Positions 1,264-12,741 of a DNA stretch of 64,000 nucleotides are shown in pieces; within the stretch, counting starts at the first letter, position 1; each line of letters starts with the position of its first letter. The notes under the pieces are model-generated. The model was not told the DNA's origin. It searched no databases and was given only the letters and a program-made list of their open reading frames with translations. Where the stretch lies: contig NZ_JAFBCW010000013.1 in NCBI RefSeq assembly GCF_016907915.1, forward strand, positions 1 to 64,000, given 5' to 3'. The translations under genes were made by a program, and so were the position numbers. The stretch is from Desulforadius tongensis. Its GTDB lineage: Bacteria; Bacillota; Desulfotomaculia; Desulfotomaculales; Desulfohalotomaculaceae.

Positions 1264-2058
1264 ATGAAGATTGGTGATACCTTGCTGCAAAAATATAAAT
1301 TTACATTTGTTTGCACAGAGCCTGGTGCGGTGCGGGGACTTGGAGGTGCCGAACTGCATGGAATGCTGTTTGGTATGCTCAAGAAGCTGGATGCCGGAGC
1401 GGCTGTGCGGCTGCATGAAGGGGTGGACAAACCTTTTGCGTTAGAGCCACCGCAGGGGCAGTGGGATAGGCAGGGGGCTTTTTCTCTCTGTAGGGCAGGA
1501 GAACAGTATAGTTTCTCCATTTCCTGCCTAAACGAAGAAATGGTAGAGTTGGTCGGGAGACTGGCGCAGGCATGGTCAGGCCGCACGGTACGGCTGGGTA
1601 CGGGCGTATTTACCGGTACTAAAGCTGTAGAAGAACACCCCGGTGGTGTATCTTACCGGAATATTCTGGACAAGCCTGCGTTATCTCGTGATTTTACGCT
1701 GGAGTTTTATACTCCCACCTCGTTCAGGCAAAAAGGTACTCAAATTCTTTTTCCTCTGCCTGAGCGTGTTTTCGGCAGCCTACTGCACCGGTGGAATGCT
1801 TTTAGCCCTCTGCAGTTGTTTGATGGCGTTGATTTCTCTGCTGTACGGGTTAAAAAGTATGCCTTACACACCTCAATGGTACATTTTGAAAAATATATGA
1901 TAGCTGGTTTTATGGGTCGGTGTACCTATATTTTGCCGGCAAAATACGCTGAGTACATGGCTTTACAGGTTCATGCCCTGACCCGGTTTGCTGGTTTTGC
2001 ATCTGTGGGTTACAAGGTAACCATGGGGCTGGGATGCACAAAACCAGTAATTAAGTGA
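1264..2058 (+). CDS. cas6: CRISPR pre-crRNA endoribonuclease Cas6
   Basis: This 264-residue RAMP-fold protein matches the Cas6 family that cuts CRISPR precursor RNA within repeats. The TPTSFRQKG...FPLPERVFGSLLHRWN block (residues ~155-185) and the C-terminal glycine-rich stretch GFASVGYKVTMGLG are typical of the Cas6 C-terminal domain. The 8-nt ATTGAAAC at the 3' end of the array repeat is the expected 5' handle after Cas6 cleavage. It is the first gene of the operon, 36 nt before cas8. The ATG at 1264 has no clear ribosome binding site, so the exact start is uncertain. Confidence 0.9.
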   Translation: MKIGDTLLQKYKFTFVCTEPGAVRGLGGAELHGMLFGMLKKLDAGAAVRLHEGVDKPFALEPPQGQWDRQGAFSLCRAGEQYSFSISCLNEEMVELVGRLAQAWSGRTVRLGTGVFTGTKAVEEHPGGVSYRNILDKPALSRDFTLEFYTPTSFRQKGTQILFPLPERVFGSLLHRWNAFSPLQLFDGVDFSAVRVKKYALHTSMVHFEKYMIAGFMGRCTYILPAKYAEYMALQVHALTRFAGFASVGYKVTMGLGCTKPVIK

Positions 2059-2094
2059 TATGCATTAATTATGCCCTTAGAGGGAGGTGAAAAT

Positions 2095-3459
2095 ATGAGC
2101 GCAGGCAAATACCGGTCAATTTATCATCCTACCGGTAATCCTTTTGTGGATGCGGGCATTTACGCTATGACTATCCTGGCCGGCAGAAAGAATCCCGAAG
2201 AACTAACCGTAGCGGATATAAAAGAAAAATTGCCTCTGCTTGCAAAAGTATACTCTACCGACGGTTGGGCCAGGTCACTATACTCGGTGTTTCCTAACCG
2301 CCCCGGCATTACCCATCCCCGGTCGGCCAAAAAGAAAGAGGTGGTGCTTGAGGGCCTGCAGCAGCTGGCCGGTCGCATAACGCCGGGAAGCGATACAGGC
2401 AATTGTATAGCTTGCGGTCGGCGGGATATGGATGAAGATATGCGTTTCTACCGGGACTACATACCCCTCACCGGCTCGGGTGAGCTGCTCAATTTCTTCC
2501 CCTTGGCGCGTCCGGGTACTGATTATTGCTCGGCCTGTGCGTTGGCGGTACAGTTCAGCCCCCTGGTTTACTATGCCTGCGGCAAATTGCTGCTGCTGCA
2601 TACCGGCTCTCGCGCGGTAATGCGCTCATGGGCCAGGCAGTGCTTAAAAAATCTGGACAATCAGGTGGCCACAGGCAGTTTCACCGGCGTGTATAATGAA
2701 AGGTTTACCAACCCTGTCAATGCACTGTTTAATATTGTCGAAAACCTGGTGCTTACTTATGAAGAAAACTGGTTGGAAGAAAATCCAGTCATCCGGCTTT
2801 ATCATTTCACTAACTATAATCAGGGACCGGAACTGGCCTATTACGACCTGCCCTCGGGAGTTTTTCGCTTCCTGGTGCTGGTAAACCAACATTCCGATGC
2901 GGGGCAGTGGCGGCAGCTGGTGCGCAGTGCATTTCAGTTCTCCGCCAAAGAAAAGGATGAGGAAGCAGCCAGCAAAAAAGTACGTAATCTTATTTACCAG
3001 CGGTTGCTTGCTGATCAGTCCATTGTGGCCTTTTTTATCAACCGGAAAGAAAGACTGGCTCGCAGCAGTTGGGTGTTATTCAGTCTTTACCTGCGGGAGG
3101 TGAGAAGAATGAATAAAAAACGTGTAGATACCATTAAGCGGGTGGCTGATCAGATAGCTTTGACTATTCGCCAAACCGACCGGCTCAAACGATTGGGACA
3201 GCTTGAGCGGGTTTCCAGCTATACGGGATTGCGCAGTGTTTTAAAGCTGTTAGTTAAAGACCACCTGGCTTTGGGTGCTGCTCAGCCGCTTTTTACATTG
3301 GATGAGTATATGGAAGAATTGTTTCCTGAAAACGGTATGAACTGGCGAGAAACCCTGGATTTGATTTTGTTTAGAATATATGAAAATCTGCACGATTGGC
3401 TGCAGGATAAGAAAGACATATTGGCGGAAAATGAACCTGAAACCGCTGAGAAAATATGA
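2095..3459 (+). CDS. cas8: Type I-B Cascade large subunit Cas8 (Cst1, CXXC-CXXC type)
   Basis: This 454-residue protein starts at ATG 2095, 5 nt after GGGAGGTGA; an in-frame ATG at 2071 lacks a binding site. It has a zinc-finger-like pair CIAC (Cys104, Cys107) and CSAC (Cys145, Cys148), the signature of the Cst1/Cas8b1 family of the Thermotoga-type (Tneap) I-B system. Position between cas6 and a DevR-type cas7 fits. In such complexes the large subunit recognises the PAM and helps recruit Cas3. The C-terminal third is helical and rich in Arg/Lys. The subtype rests on the CXXC pair plus the neighbouring cas7 and cas5 types. Confidence 0.82.
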   Translation: MSAGKYRSIYHPTGNPFVDAGIYAMTILAGRKNPEELTVADIKEKLPLLAKVYSTDGWARSLYSVFPNRPGITHPRSAKKKEVVLEGLQQLAGRITPGSDTGNCIACGRRDMDEDMRFYRDYIPLTGSGELLNFFPLARPGTDYCSACALAVQFSPLVYYACGKLLLLHTGSRAVMRSWARQCLKNLDNQVATGSFTGVYNERFTNPVNALFNIVENLVLTYEENWLEENPVIRLYHFTNYNQGPELAYYDLPSGVFRFLVLVNQHSDAGQWRQLVRSAFQFSAKEKDEEAASKKVRNLIYQRLLADQSIVAFFINRKERLARSSWVLFSLYLREVRRMNKKRVDTIKRVADQIALTIRQTDRLKRLGQLERVSSYTGLRSVLKLLVKDHLALGAAQPLFTLDEYMEELFPENGMNWRETLDLILFRIYENLHDWLQDKKDILAENEPETAEKI

Positions 3460-3481
3460 TTAATTTAAGGAGGAATCAATT

Positions 3482-4480
3482 ATGTCCGGTGTGGTTAACG
3501 GTTTAGTTTTAATAGATGCTCCTCATTCCGCTTTAAACAATGCCGGCTTGGATTCAGGGTTAGGTACGGAAAACGCTGTAGCTGTAAAAGTATTACGCCG
3601 CGGGCGCAGTGTCTATCCGTATGTCTCACCCCAGGCTTGGCGTTACTGGTGGCGCAATGCCCTGATGCAAAAACGTGGCTGGCACATGTCGCCGGTGGAA
3701 ATAAACAAAAAAATTGCCTATACTGCTGCTGACCCGTTCAAATATCCCGATGACGATGTTTTTGGCTATATGAGAGCTGAAAAGCGCACTACTTTAACGC
3801 GTCTTTCACCGCTGAAATGCTCCCCGCTGGTATCCGTAACGCCCCAGGTACCGGTACAGGATTTTGGCGTTATGGCTAGGCAGGAAGGCGACCCGGTGCC
3901 TTATGAACACCAGTTTTATTCCACCGTACTTAAAGGGATTTTTTCCCTGGACTTAGATATGGTGGGGCGATTTACTGCTATTAATAAAACGGGCTATAAA
4001 AATATTGACCAGATAAAACAAGAGTGGCGGGACAGCGGGGCTGTGGTTGATAAAGACGAGGTGAAAATGCCCGTAAAGACTAGGGCCGAAAGAGCTGCGG
4101 ATGTAATAAAGGTGCTGCCGTATATGGCCGGTGGAGCCAAACAAACCGGTCATCTAACTGACGTTACGCCGAAATTTCTGATCCTCTTAATACTGGACGG
4201 CGGCAATCATATACTGATGAACGTGGTTAATGAAAGGGAAGGACAGGTTCATATCAACCTTGAAGCATTGAAAGAAGTGCTGGTGGACTATTCCAGGGAT
4301 GTATTGTCTCCGGTTTTTATCGGACGGCGTAAGGGGTTCATGGACGAAATCGATGAAAGTTTACGTGAATTTACGCAGCAGAGTTTAGATGGGGTAGAGG
4401 TGCGTTATGGCTCTATCAATGAAATGGTTGAGGCTTTTGTCGGCTGCGTAGCTGAATATTACGGAACACATGGTTCCTAG
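3482..4480 (+). CDS. cas7: Cascade backbone subunit Cas7 (Cst2/DevR family)
   Basis: This 332-residue protein starts at ATG 3482, 7 nt after AAGGAGGA. The opening VNGLVLIDAPHSALNNAG and the following SVYPYVSPQAWRYWWRN match the Cst2/DevR Cas7 family. Multiple copies of this RAMP-fold protein coat the crRNA spacer in type I complexes. The central part (~residues 130-220) is the variable thumb region. It sits 22 nt after cas8, and its stop codon overlaps the cas5 region, as expected for a tightly coupled operon. Confidence 0.9.
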   Translation: MSGVVNGLVLIDAPHSALNNAGLDSGLGTENAVAVKVLRRGRSVYPYVSPQAWRYWWRNALMQKRGWHMSPVEINKKIAYTAADPFKYPDDDVFGYMRAEKRTTLTRLSPLKCSPLVSVTPQVPVQDFGVMARQEGDPVPYEHQFYSTVLKGIFSLDLDMVGRFTAINKTGYKNIDQIKQEWRDSGAVVDKDEVKMPVKTRAERAADVIKVLPYMAGGAKQTGHLTDVTPKFLILLILDGGNHILMNVVNEREGQVHINLEALKEVLVDYSRDVLSPVFIGRRKGFMDEIDESLREFTQQSLDGVEVRYGSINEMVEAFVGCVAEYYGTHGS

Positions 4481-4494
4481 TGGGGTGTGTAGCA

Positions 4495-5142
4495 GTGGAA
4501 GTTCTCAGAATAGTTATTACTGCCTGGACTGCATCTTTTCGATATCCCATATTCATTGTGGGTTATCAGCCCAGTTTGCCGGTACCGCCCCTATCTACGA
4601 TTTACGGTATTATATCAGCGGCCGCCGGCAGACCCATGGGACCGGGGGATACGGCGGTGGGCTATTATTTCCGCTGCAAGGGCAAGGGTACAGATATTGA
4701 AACAATTTATGAAATAGGTTCTAATTTAAAGGCAAAGCAAAATATTTGCCGCCGGGAAATCCTGTTTGAACCGGAGTTGGTTTTGTATATAACAGATACG
4801 GGATTGGCCGAAAATTTTCGCCGACCGGCACACCCGTTGCTGCTTGGCAGGTCCGGGGATCTGGCTTCAGTACGTTCTGTAGAAGCTGTTAAGTTGGCAC
4901 CAGCCAAGGGTTCGGTGATTGTGGAAGGCACTATCATGCCGTTTCCCGGCGACGGCCTGCGAGGTATTGTACAGGCACTGCCCACCCATTTTTCGGAAGA
5001 CTTGCCTAGGCGTGCCTTGGGCACCCGACTGTTTTGCCTAGTGACGGAGCGTCTGGAATTGGAACGAGAGGATCTGTGGATGGATACGCAAGCAGGTCGG
5101 GGGGTGTACCTGCACTTTGTTGACAGTGAAGGCCAAGTCTGA
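4495..5142 (+). CDS. cas5: Cascade subunit Cas5 (Cas5t type)
   Basis: This 215-residue RAMP protein caps the 5' handle of the crRNA in type I Cascade. The N-terminal motif RIVITAWTASFRYPIF followed by QPSLPVPPLSTIYG is diagnostic of the Cas5 family. I chose GTG 4495 because GGGGTGTG lies just upstream and the motif then begins at residue 5. GTG 4480, overlapping the cas7 stop, is possible and adds five residues. The 3' end overlaps the start of cas3 by about 26 nt, suggesting translational coupling. Confidence 0.85.
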   Translation: MEVLRIVITAWTASFRYPIFIVGYQPSLPVPPLSTIYGIISAAAGRPMGPGDTAVGYYFRCKGKGTDIETIYEIGSNLKAKQNICRREILFEPELVLYITDTGLAENFRRPAHPLLLGRSGDLASVRSVEAVKLAPAKGSVIVEGTIMPFPGDGLRGIVQALPTHFSEDLPRRALGTRLFCLVTERLELEREDLWMDTQAGRGVYLHFVDSEGQV

Positions 5143-7306
5143 CGGTGAAACACTGCTGGAACATACGGAGAAGTGCCTGGCCATATTACCCGGGATAATG
5201 GATGTTTTTGCAGTAATGCCCCGGCTTTGCGGGGTGCCTGATTTTTTTGAACACCTTTTTTATGCCATCTTTATACATGATCTGGGCAAGGCGGCTGCTG
5301 GCTGGCAGCAGTTCCTGGCTGAGGGGCGCTCTTGGGGTTACCGTCACGAAGTGCTTTCTGCTGCTCATGCGGGGCTTTTGCTTTATGATAAAGAAGCTAT
5401 TCAGGCTATTGCCCTGGCGGTGATAAGTCATCATCGGGATCTTTATTACCTGCGAAGCCGTCATGCCACCTTGCCCGTTGGCGGACCGGGAGAGCAAGAC
5501 TACTATGACCGGTTGACTCAGCTGACAAAAAACTGGGGCTATCTGCAAATGATGTGGGACAATATACCCGCTTTAGCCCGTCGGTACTTAGGATATGAAC
5601 CAGGACGGCATCGGGTTCCCGGTTCAGTGACAGAATTGAAAGATGCTTATCGCTACCATGTGGTGCCTTATCTTAATCAATACCGGGAAGAAGAAATGGG
5701 ATTGGTACACGGCGTATACGGGCTGTGGCTCAAGGGATTACTTACAGCTTGTGACCACCTGGCTTCCGGCGGGCGTACGTCATTGATTCCGAGTGTTGAG
5801 GAGATACAACGTTATTTTCCCTTTAAAAAACTAAAAAAGCTGCAGTGGTGTGCTGCAAAAACAAGAGGTAGTGCTTTTATGGTGGCCCCTACGGGATTTG
5901 GCAAAACCGAGGCGGCATTGTTATGGGCCGAGGGCAATCAAAAAAGCGATATCGGGGAGCGGGTTTTTTACATTCTTCCATATAATGCCAGTATAAACGC
6001 TATGTACCGGCGTTTGTCCCGTATAACAGCTTCTGCCGGTGAGGATCATGTTGCTATGCTGCATGGTCGTGCTGCGTATTACCTGTACCGGGAACTGGCG
6101 GAAAAAGACGATGAAAGCGCTGCTGTACAGCGTGCCCGAAAAATGGCATCTCTTTCCCGTAAAATATACCAGCCGTATAAAGTTTTAACACCTTTTCAGA
6201 TGTTAAGAGCTTTTTTTGGAGTTAAGGGCTTTGAACAGCATATGGCCGAAATGGCCGGTGCCCTGTTTATTTTTGACGAAATTCATGCTTACGACGCCCG
6301 TACCACTGCATTGGTACTGACAATGGCCGCCAGGTTGAAGAGAGAATTTGGTGCCAGAGTGCTGATCATGTCAGCTACTTTGCCCGCATTTATTAAAGAT
6401 ATGTTTAAAAACGAACTTTTTATAGAAACAGAACTTGTGGTGCACAAGGAGGAACTGGATCGTATTATTCGCCACCGGGTCGAGGTATTGCCGGGAAGCT
6501 GGCGGGATAATTTAGATGTAATAACACAAGATATCCGTACTGGCAAAAAGGTATTGGTGATTTGTAATACCGTATCTGCAGCGCAAGATGCTTATTGCAC
6601 ATTAAGCGGGGCTGCTCGTAATGCTGCTTTGCTGCATTCGCGCATGACTCTACAGCATCGAGAGCGTGTAGAAAAGGCATTGGCCGGTGTGGAACTGTTA
6701 GTGGCTACTCAGGTGGTGGAAGTATCCCTGGATATAGACTTTGATATTTTATACACCGAACCTGCTCCCATTGATGCTCTGGTGCAGCGATTTGGGCGAG
6801 TGAACCGTTACGGTTCAAAGGGTGTGGCACCGGTATTCATCTTTGCAAACGGTGGTAAGTACGATCATTACATTTATAATTCTGATCTGGTGAAAAAGAC
6901 TGTGGGTCTATTGAAAGACGGACTATTGGTATCGGAGTCTAAAGTACAGGAAATGGTGGATGAGGTTTATCAGGGCGGGTATACGGCAGATGACCGGCAA
7001 ATCTTCACAATGGTTGCCAAGCATTTTAGTAATTTACAAAAAGAGATTGTACCCTTTATTGAGGAAAGAGAAAAAGCTGAACAGTTTTATAAGCTCTTTG
7101 ACCGCGTGGAGGTGGTGCCGTGTGAGTTTGCAGAGCAATATATTGACCTGCTGCAGCAGGGCAGATTTTTTCAAGCTATGGGCTTTGAAGTACCGATAGG
7201 ACTAAAAAGATTTCACAGTCTGCGTCATAAAGGCCTTATAGAAAAAAAACACGGGATATGGGTGGTTGCTGCTCCGTATGACAATGAACTTGGGTTAATG
7301 GTATAA
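5117..7306 (+). CDS. cas3: CRISPR helicase-nuclease Cas3 (HD + SF2 helicase)
   Basis: This 729-residue Cas3 unwinds and degrades DNA marked by Cascade. The N-terminal HD nuclease shows FIHDLGKAA (His54-Asp55) and SHHRD. The SF2 helicase follows with Walker A APTGFGKTEA (Lys263-Thr264), DEIHAYD (Asp387-His390), MSATLP and QRFGRVNRYG. The domain order HD-helicase in one chain is the usual I-B form. The start is uncertain: TTG 5117 is 11 nt after GGGGGGTG, while TTG 5120 and GTG 5126 (VKAKSDGE, which looks family-like) are alternatives. It overlaps cas5 by 26 nt. Confidence 0.92.
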   Translation: MLTVKAKSDGETLLEHTEKCLAILPGIMDVFAVMPRLCGVPDFFEHLFYAIFIHDLGKAAAGWQQFLAEGRSWGYRHEVLSAAHAGLLLYDKEAIQAIALAVISHHRDLYYLRSRHATLPVGGPGEQDYYDRLTQLTKNWGYLQMMWDNIPALARRYLGYEPGRHRVPGSVTELKDAYRYHVVPYLNQYREEEMGLVHGVYGLWLKGLLTACDHLASGGRTSLIPSVEEIQRYFPFKKLKKLQWCAAKTRGSAFMVAPTGFGKTEAALLWAEGNQKSDIGERVFYILPYNASINAMYRRLSRITASAGEDHVAMLHGRAAYYLYRELAEKDDESAAVQRARKMASLSRKIYQPYKVLTPFQMLRAFFGVKGFEQHMAEMAGALFIFDEIHAYDARTTALVLTMAARLKREFGARVLIMSATLPAFIKDMFKNELFIETELVVHKEELDRIIRHRVEVLPGSWRDNLDVITQDIRTGKKVLVICNTVSAAQDAYCTLSGAARNAALLHSRMTLQHRERVEKALAGVELLVATQVVEVSLDIDFDILYTEPAPIDALVQRFGRVNRYGSKGVAPVFIFANGGKYDHYIYNSDLVKKTVGLLKDGLLVSESKVQEMVDEVYQGGYTADDRQIFTMVAKHFSNLQKEIVPFIEEREKAEQFYKLFDRVEVVPCEFAEQYIDLLQQGRFFQAMGFEVPIGLKRFHSLRHKGLIEKKHGIWVVAAPYDNELGLMV

Positions 7307-7370: not shown

Positions 7371-9011
7371 GTGCAATTAATCGAAGCCGGTGAACAAAAA
7401 CATTACTTGCCTGTATCGGCACTGGCAGAAATACTTTATTGCCCGCGCAATTTTTATTATAGAGTGATGGAAGCTGCTGAAGATTCCAACGCCCACGTGT
7501 TGGAAGGACGACTGCAAGAAGAACGCCGCAGCAGCCGGGAGCGGGTAATTAGAGAAAACTCCCTGCAGGTACGATCGATTATGCTTGCTTCGGAAAAACT
7601 GGGATTAATAGGTGTGGTGGATGCTGTTGAGGAAAGAAAAACGGGCGTATTATATCCTGTAGAATATAAAAAAGGGAAAATGGGTGACAACATTAATGAT
7701 GATGTTCAGCTTTGTGCCCAGGCTATGCTGCTGGAAGAAAAACTTGGTGCGGGAATTGAACGGGGATTTGTGTATTATGCCGGCTCCCATGCTCGTCGAG
7801 AAGTTTATCTCAGCAGTGACTTGAGGGAACTCGTTGTTCAAACAATTGACAGAGCCCGGGGGATGATAGAAACAGGTGAAATACCGCCACCGCTGGGTGA
7901 TAACCGCTGCCGGGGATGCGCTCTGGAAGAAAGGTGTCTGCCTGATGAAACCAGGTATTTAAAAGGTACGGGTTTGCGCCCTAAGCGCCCGGTGCCCGGA
8001 GCCAATCTGGGCCGGGTGCTGTACGTGGACGACCCAGGAGCTTACGTACGCAAAAAGGGAAATCGCTTAGTGGTTTCCCGGCAGGACGAAACTATTTGTG
8101 ATATGCCGCTGTGTAATGTTGATCAAGTAGTGCTGGTGGGCGGGGTTAACCTTTCTACTCCTGCGGCCAGGAAACTGCTTGAACATGGCACAGGCGTATC
8201 ATTTATCTCTACCAGGGGCAAGTTTCAGGGGGCGCTGGTTCCTGGGTTGACCAGAAATTCAATCCTGCGGCTTGCCCAGTACCGATTATATTTTGAAGAA
8301 GCCAAAAGCATTGCATTATCCCGAGCCTTTGTCAGAGGGAAACTGGGTAACATGCGAACTATGCTGCTGCGCTACAACCGGGATTTAAAAGATCCGGCAA
8401 TAGAAAATGCCGTCCGGCGAATAGCGGTTATCATTAAGGATGTTAAAAGTGTCCGGGATAAGGAACGTCTGCTGGGGCTTGAAGGTGCCGGCTCCCGTGA
8501 ATACTTTAAAGTGCTGGGCAGGTTGATTAAGCATGATATTACCTTTGACTTTACCAAGCGCAGCCGCCGCCCGCCCCAGGATCCGGTAAACGCCATGCTT
8601 AGTTTTGGATATACTTTGTTGGTTAAAGACTGTCTGACTGCCGCTTACGTGGCCGGTTTCGATCCTTATATTGGTTTTTTTCACCGTCCTTTGTACGGCA
8701 GACCTGCTTTGGCACTGGACATTATGGAGGAATTCCGTCCTGTGGTAGTCGATTCAGTGGTTTTAGGCCTATTAAATCGCGGCATGATGGAAGAAGGAAA
8801 TTTTGAGTATAATATGGGCGGATGCTTTCTTAACCGCTTGGGACGGGAAAAGTTCTATCGTGCCTATGAAGAGCGGCGCCGGCAAAAAATCACCCATCCG
8901 CTGTTTAAATACCAGCTGCCCTATATGCGGGTGTTTGAAATGCAAGCTCGTTTTTTGGCCAAGGTGATTATGGGGGAACTTGACGAATATATACCGTTTG
9001 TTATTAGATAA
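7371..9011 (+). CDS. cas4-cas1: Cas4-Cas1 fusion, spacer acquisition nuclease/integrase
   Basis: One 546-residue chain joins two adaptation proteins. Residues ~12-195 are Cas4: a RecB-type core with GVVDAVE and YPVEYKKGK, plus cysteines YCPRN and CRGCALEERC that ligate an Fe-S cluster. Residues ~213-546 are Cas1, with catalytic Glu371 (GLEGAGSREYF), His438 (FFHRPLYG) and Asp450 (LALDIMEEFRP). Cas4 trims PAM-containing prespacers and Cas1 integrates them. The GTG start at 7371 follows GTGGGG at a long 13-nt spacing. Fused Cas4-Cas1 is best known from type I-G and V-B loci, so it is notable beside Cst1-type I-B genes. Confidence 0.93.
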   Translation: MQLIEAGEQKHYLPVSALAEILYCPRNFYYRVMEAAEDSNAHVLEGRLQEERRSSRERVIRENSLQVRSIMLASEKLGLIGVVDAVEERKTGVLYPVEYKKGKMGDNINDDVQLCAQAMLLEEKLGAGIERGFVYYAGSHARREVYLSSDLRELVVQTIDRARGMIETGEIPPPLGDNRCRGCALEERCLPDETRYLKGTGLRPKRPVPGANLGRVLYVDDPGAYVRKKGNRLVVSRQDETICDMPLCNVDQVVLVGGVNLSTPAARKLLEHGTGVSFISTRGKFQGALVPGLTRNSILRLAQYRLYFEEAKSIALSRAFVRGKLGNMRTMLLRYNRDLKDPAIENAVRRIAVIIKDVKSVRDKERLLGLEGAGSREYFKVLGRLIKHDITFDFTKRSRRPPQDPVNAMLSFGYTLLVKDCLTAAYVAGFDPYIGFFHRPLYGRPALALDIMEEFRPVVVDSVVLGLLNRGMMEEGNFEYNMGGCFLNRLGREKFYRAYEERRRQKITHPLFKYQLPYMRVFEMQARFLAKVIMGELDEYIPFVIR

Positions 9012-9052: not shown

Positions 9053-9373
9053 ATGGAAAATATTGTTATTACCTATGATATCCGGGACGACCGGCGCAGG
9101 GAAAAAGTGCGTAAAACATTGAAAGACTATGGAGTACCCGTACAGTACAGTGTATTTGAATGCCGGCTGCGCAAAGAAGATGTGTTGAGTTTAAGATATA
9201 AACTGGACAGTTTGATTAAAAAAAACGAAGACAGCATCATCTTTTACCGCCAGTGTCCCCGCTGCAGCGGTAGGGTAGACCGCTTGGGGATGTCTTTCGA
9301 CCCATTTGGAGATGGATTATATATAATAACTGGTGGAGATTTAGCCAATGAGGATGATGCAGGCGATATTTAA
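9053..9373 (+). CDS. cas2: CRISPR adaptation protein Cas2
   Basis: This 106-residue ferredoxin-fold protein bridges Cas1 dimers during spacer integration. The N-terminal ITYDIRDDRRREKV, with the conserved YD pair, and the following GVPVQYSVFECRL are classic Cas2. The tail from ~residue 70 (CPRCSGR) adds two cysteines. It lies 41 nt after cas4-cas1 and is the last gene before the leader. No convincing ribosome binding site precedes ATG 9053, so coupling to the upstream gene is likely. Length is typical for the family (~90-105). Confidence 0.93.
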   Translation: MENIVITYDIRDDRRREKVRKTLKDYGVPVQYSVFECRLRKEDVLSLRYKLDSLIKKNEDSIIFYRQCPRCSGRVDRLGMSFDPFGDGLYIITGGDLANEDDAGDI

Positions 9374-9654
9374 GAAAAGGAAAAGTAATAACGGTTAATC
9401 AAGCCTAAATAAGAATAGTTCTTATCGAGCACCCTGGGCTGTGCAAAAAACCCCGGGGTTGCTCGCAAAAAACTTTTTTGGGCGAGCAAGCAGGAAAACC
9501 TGCGCTGGTGGCGAACTAAGGAGGTGGAAAAAGATTCATATCGCCTTGATGTTATTTTGCTTTAGCTAAGATATGGAAAGATATATGCTCTTGCTGATAG
9601 GTGCTCGCAAAAAGCCATTATAGCCCTTGAGTTACAAGGCCCGAGGACCAAAAG
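9374..9654 (+). promoter_or_regulatory. CRISPR leader
   Basis: This 281-nt noncoding sequence lies between cas2 and the first intact repeat; the degenerate repeat is at the far end of the array, so this is the leader side. It contains gctcgcaaaaa twice (9461 and 9603). Three related segments can pair in alternative ways: cgagcaccctggg (9426), ccccggggttgctcgc (9451-9466) and gcgagcaa (9482-9489). The second and third form a stem including A6/T6. A perfect AAGGAGGTG at 9518-9526 is not followed by a usable start codon. Confidence 0.75.
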
Positions 9655-11863
9655 GTCTAAACAAAAATAATTCCCTCTGGGAATTGAAACCAAACCCCAG
9701 GCATGTCCAAACTCCTGAAAGTTTTCTGTCTAAACAAAAATAATTCCCTCTGGGAATTGAAACAGTTCAGCATCATCCCATGCAGCCCATTTGCCATTGG
9801 GCGTCTAAACAAAAATAATTCCCTCTGGGAATTGAAACGTAATAAACTCAAGGCCATCATCCAACTGAATAGTGCAGTCTAAACAAAAATAATTCCCTCT
9901 GGGAATTGAAACATTGGTTGCAGCAGGCTTGGTATGAGGCGACTTATGGGGTCTAAACAAAAATAATTCCCTCTGGGAATTGAAACTGCATGCTATTCCT
10001 GCGTTTTCTGTTCCTTCTGAAGTGGCGTGTCTAAACAAAAATAATTCCCTCTGGGAATTGAAACTGCTGGGCTCAGGGGGGCGTGAGCACTCCTGTGCTT
10101 ACGCCCGTCTAAACAAAAATAATTCCCTCTGGGAATTGAAACTCCTGGCCGTGGGAAGACTATGGCCATGACCGAGTACCGTCTAAACAAAAATAATTCC
10201 CTCTGGGAATTGAAACAGGGCACCCAAAAAAAATTTTTCAATTTTTTTTGGGTTCCCACGTCTAAACAAAAATAATTCCCTCTGGGAATTGAAACTCGTC
10301 TCGAAGCATCTCGATTAATCCCCTCTCAGCAAGTCTAAACAAAAATAATTCCCTCTGGGAATTGAAACCCGGTTGCTGTGAACTGTTGGGCGCCTCGGGT
10401 TCGTTGTCTAAACAAAAATAATTCCCTCTGGGAATTGAAACACCAGCGATAGGCCATTTCTGCTAAAGCATCACCGGGCCTGTCTAAACAAAAATAATTC
10501 CCTCTGGGAATTGAAACACCTCTTCAATGGCGGAAGCCGCGCCGAGTACTTGTTGGTCTAAACAAAAATAATTCCCTCTGGGAATTGAAACCCACCTTTC
10601 CCCCAAAGCAAACTACGAGCCTGACGATACGTCTAAACAAAAATAATTCCCTCTGGGAATTGAAACCCCATTGAAAGAGTACCTTTTTCGTATGGTCAAA
10701 CTCTCTAAACAAAAATAATTCCCTCTGGGAATTGAAACATTAATCCCCTCTCAGCAACAGTTACCCTCATTACTTCAGTCTAAACAAAAATAATTCCCTC
10801 TGGGAATTGAAACATAAAAAACAAAAGTTCTTTACAAAGTGTTAAAGCTCTTGTTTGTCTAAACAAAAATAATTCCCTCTGGGAATTGAAACTTTCGTAT
10901 GCAGCTATTTTTTTGCCCATACGGTCTATTTTGTCTAAACAAAAATAATTCCCTCTGGGAATTGAAACTTTTTCGTATGGTCAGGCTCTTGAGTTTAGAA
11001 ATCCTGTCTAAACAAAAATAATTCCCTCTGGGAATTGAAACCCCTGACAAAGCGTTGCATCAAGGCGATTTCCATAGTATGTCTAAACAAAAATAATTCC
11101 CTCTGGGAATTGAAACTGCTATGCATAGGGTTTGTGATGAGTTATCTCATCGGCGTCTAAACAAAAATAATTCCCTCTGGGAATTGAAACGCCTTTACCA
11201 TAGATGGTGAAACCATTGCCTTAGAAGGAAGTCTAAACAAAAATAATTCCCTCTGGGAATTGAAACAAGCTGACGATGAAGAGTTCAAAGAGTTTCTTAA
11301 AAACTGTCTAAACAAAAATAATTCCCTCTGGGAATTGAAACACCCCTATTCTCACTGTTTCACTCGGGCTGCCGTTTAGTCTAAACAAAAATAATTCCCT
11401 CTGGGAATTGAAACTACGGTACTGTAGCTGAGGGAATCGTTGACAGCCTTAAGAGTCTAAACAAAAATAATTCCCTCTGGGAATTGAAACGATTGGCATC
11501 CCGGCCCTGTCCAGTGGCGTCCAGTCGATGTCTAAACAAAAATAATTCCCTCTGGGAATTGAAACGAGAAACCGGTACCGGTATACTGAAATCACTTAAA
11601 CCGTCTAAACAAAAATAATTCCCTCTGGGAATTGAAACTTTATTTTAAATAGAAATGATGGTTTTATACCAAACATGTCTAAACAAAAATAATTCCCTCT
11701 GGGAATTGAAACCGTATCACTGTTTCTGATCACTCTATATATGTGGTTAGTCTAAACAAAAATAATTCCCTCTGGGAATTGAAACTTTTTCGTATGGTCA
11801 GACTTTAGAGTTTAGAAATCCTCATTCGTCTAAACAAAAATAATTCCCTCTGGGAATTGCAGG
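9655..11863 (+). CRISPR. Type I-B CRISPR array, 30 repeats / 29 spacers
   Basis: The repeat is 36 nt, starting GTCTAAACAAAAATAATT and ending ATTGAAAC, with an internal palindrome AATTCCC-TCT-GGGAATT. Repeat starts are 9655, 9728, 9803, 9877, 9951, 10029, 10107, 10181, 10260, 10333, 10406, 10482, 10556, 10631, 10703, 10778, 10857, 10933, 11006, 11081, 11155, 11231, 11306, 11379, 11455, 11530, 11603, 11677, 11750 and 11828. Repeats are identical except that the one at 10703 begins with C, and the last diverges after 32 nt (11859). Spacers are 36-43 nt. The array reads in the same direction as the cas operon. Confidence 0.98.
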
Positions 11864-11943: not shown

Positions 11944-12741
11944 TTAACACCCGCAGTCCTTGTGGTGCCTGGGTTCTTTGTAACCTTTCATGTGTCTAAT
12001 AATCCAGTCCAGTTTGCATTCAATTTCTTTTATTTCCTTTTTAATTTCCTTTAATCCAAATTCCGGGCTGTCAAGTTTGCATTCAATATCAAAAATTTCG
12101 CATTTAATTTCTTTTAAGCCGAATTTTTTATCACAGATTTTATCTTCAATATCTTTAACTTCTCTTTTTATTTCTGATAAGCCAAAGGTGGGGCTGAATA
12201 TGGCATCATGAATGGCGGAAATTTCTGACTTAATTTCGCTTAATCCAACGGTGGGGCTGAGAATAATATCTTCAATGCCCCCCACTTCTTGTTTTATTTC
12301 CGAGAGGCCGAAGGATGGACTGTTTATCATATCTTCAATATCTTGAATTTCTTTTTTGATTTCTTTTAATCCATAGTCCGGGTTTTTTATGATGCATTCG
12401 ATTTCTTTTACTTCCTTTTTAATTTCTTTTAATCCGAATTCCCGGTTGGTGAGCAGATGCTTGATTTTTTCCAATTTACCCAGTTCCCTGGCCAGTAAAT
12501 CTTCAATTTGCCTGATCTCTTTTTTAATTTCGTAGAGGCCGTATTTAGATCTTTTATCCAGCATGTAATTAAGTTTATTATCTACATCATGGAGACATTG
12601 ATTTATCTTAGGCAGCCCGCAGTGATGATTGTTATCTAAAATTGCATAGAGATAGCGCATTATTTTCTTCAGTATTTCTATTTCTTTTTGCATATCGGCA
12701 CTCAGTTCATTGAACTCAATATCTTCATAGCCCTGTTTCAC
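11944..12741 (-). CDS. Coiled-coil protein with seven 21-residue repeats
   Basis: This 265-residue protein is a paralogue of the gene truncated at the left edge (shared KLNYML, YGLYEIKKEI and promoter). It starts at GTG 12741 after AAGGAGGG. From about residue 100 it consists of successive 21-residue units of the form FGLKEIKKEVKEIECIIKNP, equal to three heptads, predicting a rigid helical or coiled-coil rod. The C terminus is short, basic and metal-binding-like (RHHKDCGC). There is no signal peptide or membrane helix. Function unknown; I do not recognise a named family. Confidence 0.82.
   Translation of the reverse strand: MKQGYEDIEFNELSADMQKEIEILKKIMRYLYAILDNNHHCGLPKINQCLHDVDNKLNYMLDKRSKYGLYEIKKEIRQIEDLLARELGKLEKIKHLLTNREFGLKEIKKEVKEIECIIKNPDYGLKEIKKEIQDIEDMINSPSFGLSEIKQEVGGIEDIILSPTVGLSEIKSEISAIHDAIFSPTFGLSEIKREVKDIEDKICDKKFGLKEIKCEIFDIECKLDSPEFGLKEIKKEIKEIECKLDWIIRHMKGYKEPRHHKDCGC

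Follow-up and report, generated by a model that had tools for sequence, protein, structure and literature searches.

Overlapping spacers in a CRISPR array of Desulforadius tongensis point to repeated sampling of one site in diverging elements

The CRISPR-Cas locus

The window, which is the whole 64,000-nt stretch of contig NZ_JAFBCW010000013.1 of Desulforadius tongensis (GCF_016907915.1) analysed here, carries effector and adaptation genes followed by a CRISPR array (Table 1). The effector is assigned to type I-B by its protein families (Cas8b, Cas7, and Cas5 of I-B (Cst), with Cas3 and Cas6), the models TIGR01908, TIGR02585, TIGR01895, TIGR01587/TIGR01596, and TIGR01877 each being matched above its own cut-off. 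The adaptation module is, by its protein match, of the type I-G kind, as the product of the cas4-cas1 gene is a Cas4-Cas1 fusion that matches the I-G model NF049935 (Cas4g/Cas1g) with 641 bits against a cut-off of 560 over residues 12-546. The locus is thus a mixed module that joins a type I-G-like fusion to a type I-B (Cst) effector operon, and a classification of the whole system as type I-G was rejected because the effector genes belong to I-B families. When compared to Thermotoga maritima I-B1 (PMC13199841), the window shares the Cas8b1/Cst1, Cas7/Cst2, and Cas5 families as defined by NCBIfam and a repeat ending in GAAAC, whereas its adaptation uses the I-G-type Cas4-Cas1 fusion. In loci with distantly related Cas8b1 proteins, Cas1 matched the fusion protein of the window at just ~24-28% identity, and a Cas4-like match was present at one of these loci as a separate stretch.

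Table 1. Positions of the features discussed in the text, counted from the first nucleotide of the window.
Feature	Position	Strand	Remarks
cas6, cas8b1/cst1, cas7/cst2, cas5, cas3	1264..7306	+	Type I-B effector genes
cas4-cas1 fusion gene	7371-9011	+	Adaptation
cas2	9053-9373	+	Adaptation
cas2-to-first-repeat region	9374..9654	+	Contains the leader, with a CGAGCA...GGGGTTGCTCG element
CRISPR array	9655..11859	+	30 repeats of 36 nt (final copy truncated), 29 spacers of 36-43 nt
Spacer 6	10065-10106		Near-perfect inverted repeat
Spacer 8	10217-10259		Near-perfect inverted repeat
Spacer 9	10296..10332	+	Last 19 nt equal the first 19 of spacer 15
Spacer 12	10518..10555	+	Encodes PLQWRKPRRVLV; 19/22 match to a contig C6 spacer
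Spacer 14	10667..10702 (36 nt)	+	Newest of the trio; encodes PIERVPFSYGQT
First base of the repeat after spacer 14	10703		C in place of G
Spacer 15	10739..10777	+	Overlaps spacer 9; 26/30 match to a contig C8 spacer
Spacer 18	10969..11005 (37 nt)	+	Encodes FSYGQALEFRNP
Spacer 29	11786..11827 (42 nt)	+	Oldest in the array; encodes FSYGQTLEFRNPH
Gene adjoining the array	11944-12741		265-aa repeat protein

Within the array, 28 of the 30 repeats are perfect. New spacers enter at the left, since the cas genes lie on that side, the leader is at the left end, and the repeat at the right end is truncated. The age order of the spacers discussed below is therefore 29, then 18, then 14, and spacer 15 is older than spacer 9. 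The leader element given in Table 1 also precedes the arrays of one same-genus genome. Additionally, contig C5 of the host genome (L021:1-1400) holds a remnant composed of a similar leader and one degenerate copy of the repeat of the window. The gene on the far side of the array encodes a protein built of 21-aa repeats (63-bp DNA period, GLKEIKKEI-like) with coiled-coil character.

Overlapping spacers within the array

The sequence-only reading of this DNA had pointed to spacers 14, 18, and 29 as three samples of one target, and the comparison bore out both the matches and their coordinates. Spacers 18 and 29 are identical at 34 of 37 positions and share the same 5′ register from base 1, while the 3′ 19 nt of spacer 14 match the 5′ 19 nt of spacer 29 at 18 positions and those of spacer 18 at 17, which places spacer 14 17 nt upstream of the 18/29 site with a 19-nt overlap. 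The pair scores were 28 (18/29), 16 (14/29), and 15 (14/18), all above the best pair of 8-13 obtained in each of 60 sets of composition-shuffled spacers.

A second overlapping pair, missing from the sequence-only reading, is formed by spacers 9 and 15, which have ATTAATCCCCTCTCAGCAA in common, with 19 identical nucleotides when the two are offset by 18 (score 19). The displacement runs the same way in the two sets, as relative to the older spacer the newer one is placed 17-18 nt farther upstream.

Each overlap exposes part of the target beyond the older spacer. The 5′ flanks deduced in this way were ACC for the 18/29 site (from spacer 14) and TCG for spacer 15 (from spacer 9), both with a C at -2, although two cases are too few to define a PAM. 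A pyrimidine at -2 is reported to be recognised by all characterised Cas8b proteins, and the PAM of the Thermotoga maritima type I-B1 system is YYD (PMC13199841), to which the ACC flank does not conform.

Coding signature and related spacers in other arrays

The sole frame open in spacers 14, 18, and 29 reads ...PIERVPFSYGQ(T/A)LEFRNPHS. The differences between the three in this frame consist of two synonymous exchanges (CAA/CAG and CTT/TTA) and one Ala/Thr replacement (GCT/ACT). Taken alone, this coding signal is weak, as random changes would perform equally well in one frame or another with a probability of 0.25. The reading is strengthened by two matches between arrays, also missing from the sequence-only reading, the differences of which are all synonymous: spacer 15 differs at 4 of 30 positions from a spacer of contig C8, located in an array with a different, 30-nt repeat (P = 0.009), and spacer 12 differs at 3 of 22 positions from a spacer of contig C6 (P = 0.06). 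At the spacer 9/15 site, the changes are all synonymous in two frames, so that either strand may be the coding one.

Both matching spacers belong to another CRISPR repeat family of the same genome, found in further arrays on contigs C8, C16, C35, C6, and C3 (L022, L023, L024, L062, and L063) that hold at least 82 spacers and share the 30-nt repeat GTTT(C/G)TAG(C/T)CTACCTAT(A/G)AGGAATTGAAAC. One spacer is common to the C8 and C35 arrays. Among the open frames adjoining these arrays in the stretches read, no cas genes were recognised by eye. In a same-genus genome (G002), the arrays on contig C3 (L028) contain 96 spacers with several in-register diverged pairs (G2C3_15952/16888, 4423/16623, and 4821/18274), and a further pair (3759/17881) covers one fragment in opposite orientations. 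Other arrays of the host genome likewise resample other sites of diverging elements.

Regarding spacer 12, its predicted product can be placed in a known family. Spacer 12 and the C6 spacer encode QWRKPRRV and RWRKPRRV, and the pattern WRKPRRV(F/L)V was found in 108 viral contigs of IMG/VR, against about three expected by our own estimate from the pattern length and the collection size. The 80 contigs fetched out of these 108 have a common gene context, and the same pattern occurs in the loci of relatives found with the Pfam model DUF5131 (PF07505). This family, of the phage Gp37/Gp68 type and common in phages, carries the WRKPRRV(F/L)V motif with a preceding P(L/M), as encoded by spacer 12 and the C6 spacer; the PL in spacer 12 lay outside the search pattern. 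With PLxWRKPRRV(F/L)V present in frame, spacer 12 is predicted to target a DUF5131 gene, which gives the frame reading independent support at this site. The family is not confined to phages, as it occurs in the non-phage genome of Thermotoga maritima that served as a control.

Searches for the targets

DUF5131 is the predicted target of spacer 12 and not that of the trio, the shared segment of which was not found in or near the DUF5131 genes of phages or relatives; when the loci of relatives were read for the targets of the trio and of spacers 9/15, neither was found. The target of the trio was absent from the assembled host genome, which argues against a chromosomal target in the host strain. 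It was likewise not found by tblastn with the 20-aa composite of the trio or by blastn with the whole contiguous array against phages and plasmids, by degenerate patterns in IMG/VR and GTDB contigs, in 113 genomes of the host order and 398 of the phylum, or in Pfam and PHROGs. Candidate loci L069, L071, L076, L077-L088, and L249 were set aside as chance matches, because the flanking residues were missing or the frame was very short or unrelated. The target of the spacer 9/15 site was likewise not found, the matches being judged to be chance, and a likeness of spacer 28 to structural genes of T4-like phages was not accepted (E about 1-2). The sequence-only reading had proposed a degenerate query built from the three spacers and had named the lack of any element with the shared segment as an outcome against it, and none of the collections searched yielded such an element. 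We consider this absence weak evidence against the reading, as the phages of this host may be missing from these collections.

Origin of the overlapping spacers

Since the differences between the related spacers are mostly synonymous, they point to samples of conserved coding sites in diverged invaders rather than to mutated duplicates within the array. We consider it highly probable that spacers 29, 18, and 14 were taken from one conserved coding site in relatives of an invading mobile element, which was most likely a phage. Capture would have proceeded in the order 29, 18, 14, from relatives that either followed one another or circulated together. The cut for spacers 29 and 18 would have been made at one 5′ boundary, which agrees with a boundary dictated by a PAM, and that for spacer 14 17 nt upstream, while the divergence would have arisen in the element itself, restrained by selection on its protein.

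The conserved frame, the exact register of spacers 18 and 29, and a clustering tighter than random draws from a genome of phage size would give uphold the earlier proposal that the trio samples a diverging family at one site. When 29 random spacers were drawn from a single 40-kb source, three overlapping spacers on one strand arose in 0.25-0.75% of the simulations, whereas 2-10% gave two separate overlapping sets, figures that rose to 4-12% and 24-65%, respectively, for a 10-kb source; all of these are generous, because real arrays sample more than one element. It is therefore likely that acquisition or retention had some local focus, unless the source was very small. It should be considered that only a conserved site allows an overlap between diverged elements to be recognised, and the focus on such sites is thereby made to look stronger than it is. 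The choice that the sequence-only reading had offered, between a favoured acquisition point and several coexisting elements, proved to be a false alternative, as the data call for a local bias in acquisition or retention together with elements that have diverged, or with a single lineage that changed in the course of time.

As for the cause of this bias, a new variant that is poorly cut by an older crRNA could be partially recognised by the type I-B effector, and such recognition would focus acquisition nearby. It is established that new protospacers cluster around one that has been primed, also in a type I-B system (PMC5059440). The array exhibits this pattern, with spacers 14/18/29 and 9/15 each near one site and the older spacer 29 an imperfect match (34/37) to the newer spacer 18. 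In the type I systems with primed, interference-driven acquisition treated in PMC5059440, which cites that of Haloarcula hispanica I-B, new spacers likewise cluster near the site of an older, imperfect spacer of the same array. Unlike in those systems, the pattern here is seen only as a record in the array, and spacers 18 and 29 reuse an exact boundary. We regard priming by an older, imperfect spacer as the most likely cause of the focus, with about an even chance by itself; a naturally favoured site, or selective persistence of those spacers that are directed at a conserved site, may add to priming or replace it, and both can operate together with it.

The stronger of these two, although we think it rather unlikely as the main cause, is a naive hot spot, in which the site is intrinsically favoured by PAM context, ends, or stalled forks and older spacers play no role. 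Such hot spots are documented (PMC5059440), and the reuse of an exact register, seen at several sites and again in another species, would suit one, yet a hot spot alone leaves unexplained the 17-18 nt shifts in the same direction (14 versus 18/29 and 9 versus 15), of which there are just two cases. We give less credence to selective retention, according to which acquisition is broad and a spacer is kept when it is directed at a conserved, essential site from which variants find no escape. Protein-level conservation is indeed seen at the resampled sites, one of which belongs to a widespread family, but the reuse of an exact register would demand a boundary rule as well.

Duplication of spacer 18 (or 29) by recombination within the array, followed by mutation, is very improbable, even though identical adjacent duplicates occur elsewhere, at C16_6459/6523 in the host genome and G2C3_18274/18341 in the relative. 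Three substitutions in 37 nt are out of line with the level of mutation in an array with so few imperfect repeats, the two spacers differ in length and stand 10 spacers apart, two of the three changes leave the encoded protein unaltered, and duplication cannot give rise to spacer 14, which extends the same frame upstream. Diversity-generating retroelements introduce adenine-directed, amino-acid-changing substitutions, and the idea that such an element rewrites the target as its variable region can practically be discarded, for although several small changes fall within a short block of one gene, they are mostly synonymous and include C/T changes and the CTT/TTA codon swap.

Meaning of the resampling

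The resampling is real and well supported, and it belongs to known CRISPR biology. Where overlapping spacers are directed at diverged variants, they show directly that a changing element was met repeatedly, and they reveal the reading frame of the target and part of its flanks without a phage in hand. Additionally, separate arrays within a genome are seen to converge on shared conserved genes, and the overlapping spacers offer a natural test case for asking whether a type I-B system renews its older memories at an unchanged site. A wider proposal, which we put forward only tentatively and consider doubtful, is that acquisition or retention in this lineage returns to a few exact sites of diverging elements, across several arrays, repeat families, and a second species. 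If true, the arrays would hold the record of a few acquisition hot spots of a phage family not yet characterised, the evolution of which could be traced without the phage.

Minor features of the array

Spacers 6 and 8 fold as strong hairpins (-25 kcal/mol, z -3.4, and -20.6 kcal/mol, z -5.9, respectively) and look as if they were captured terminator-like hairpins. The repeat downstream of spacer 14 starts with CTCT instead of GTCT. The C at its first position would fit the base that follows in the target (within a leucine codon of the form CTN, compare spacer 18) and may reflect integration off by one base rather than a point mutation, in which case spacer 14 would measure 37 nt, the shortest length otherwise present in the array.
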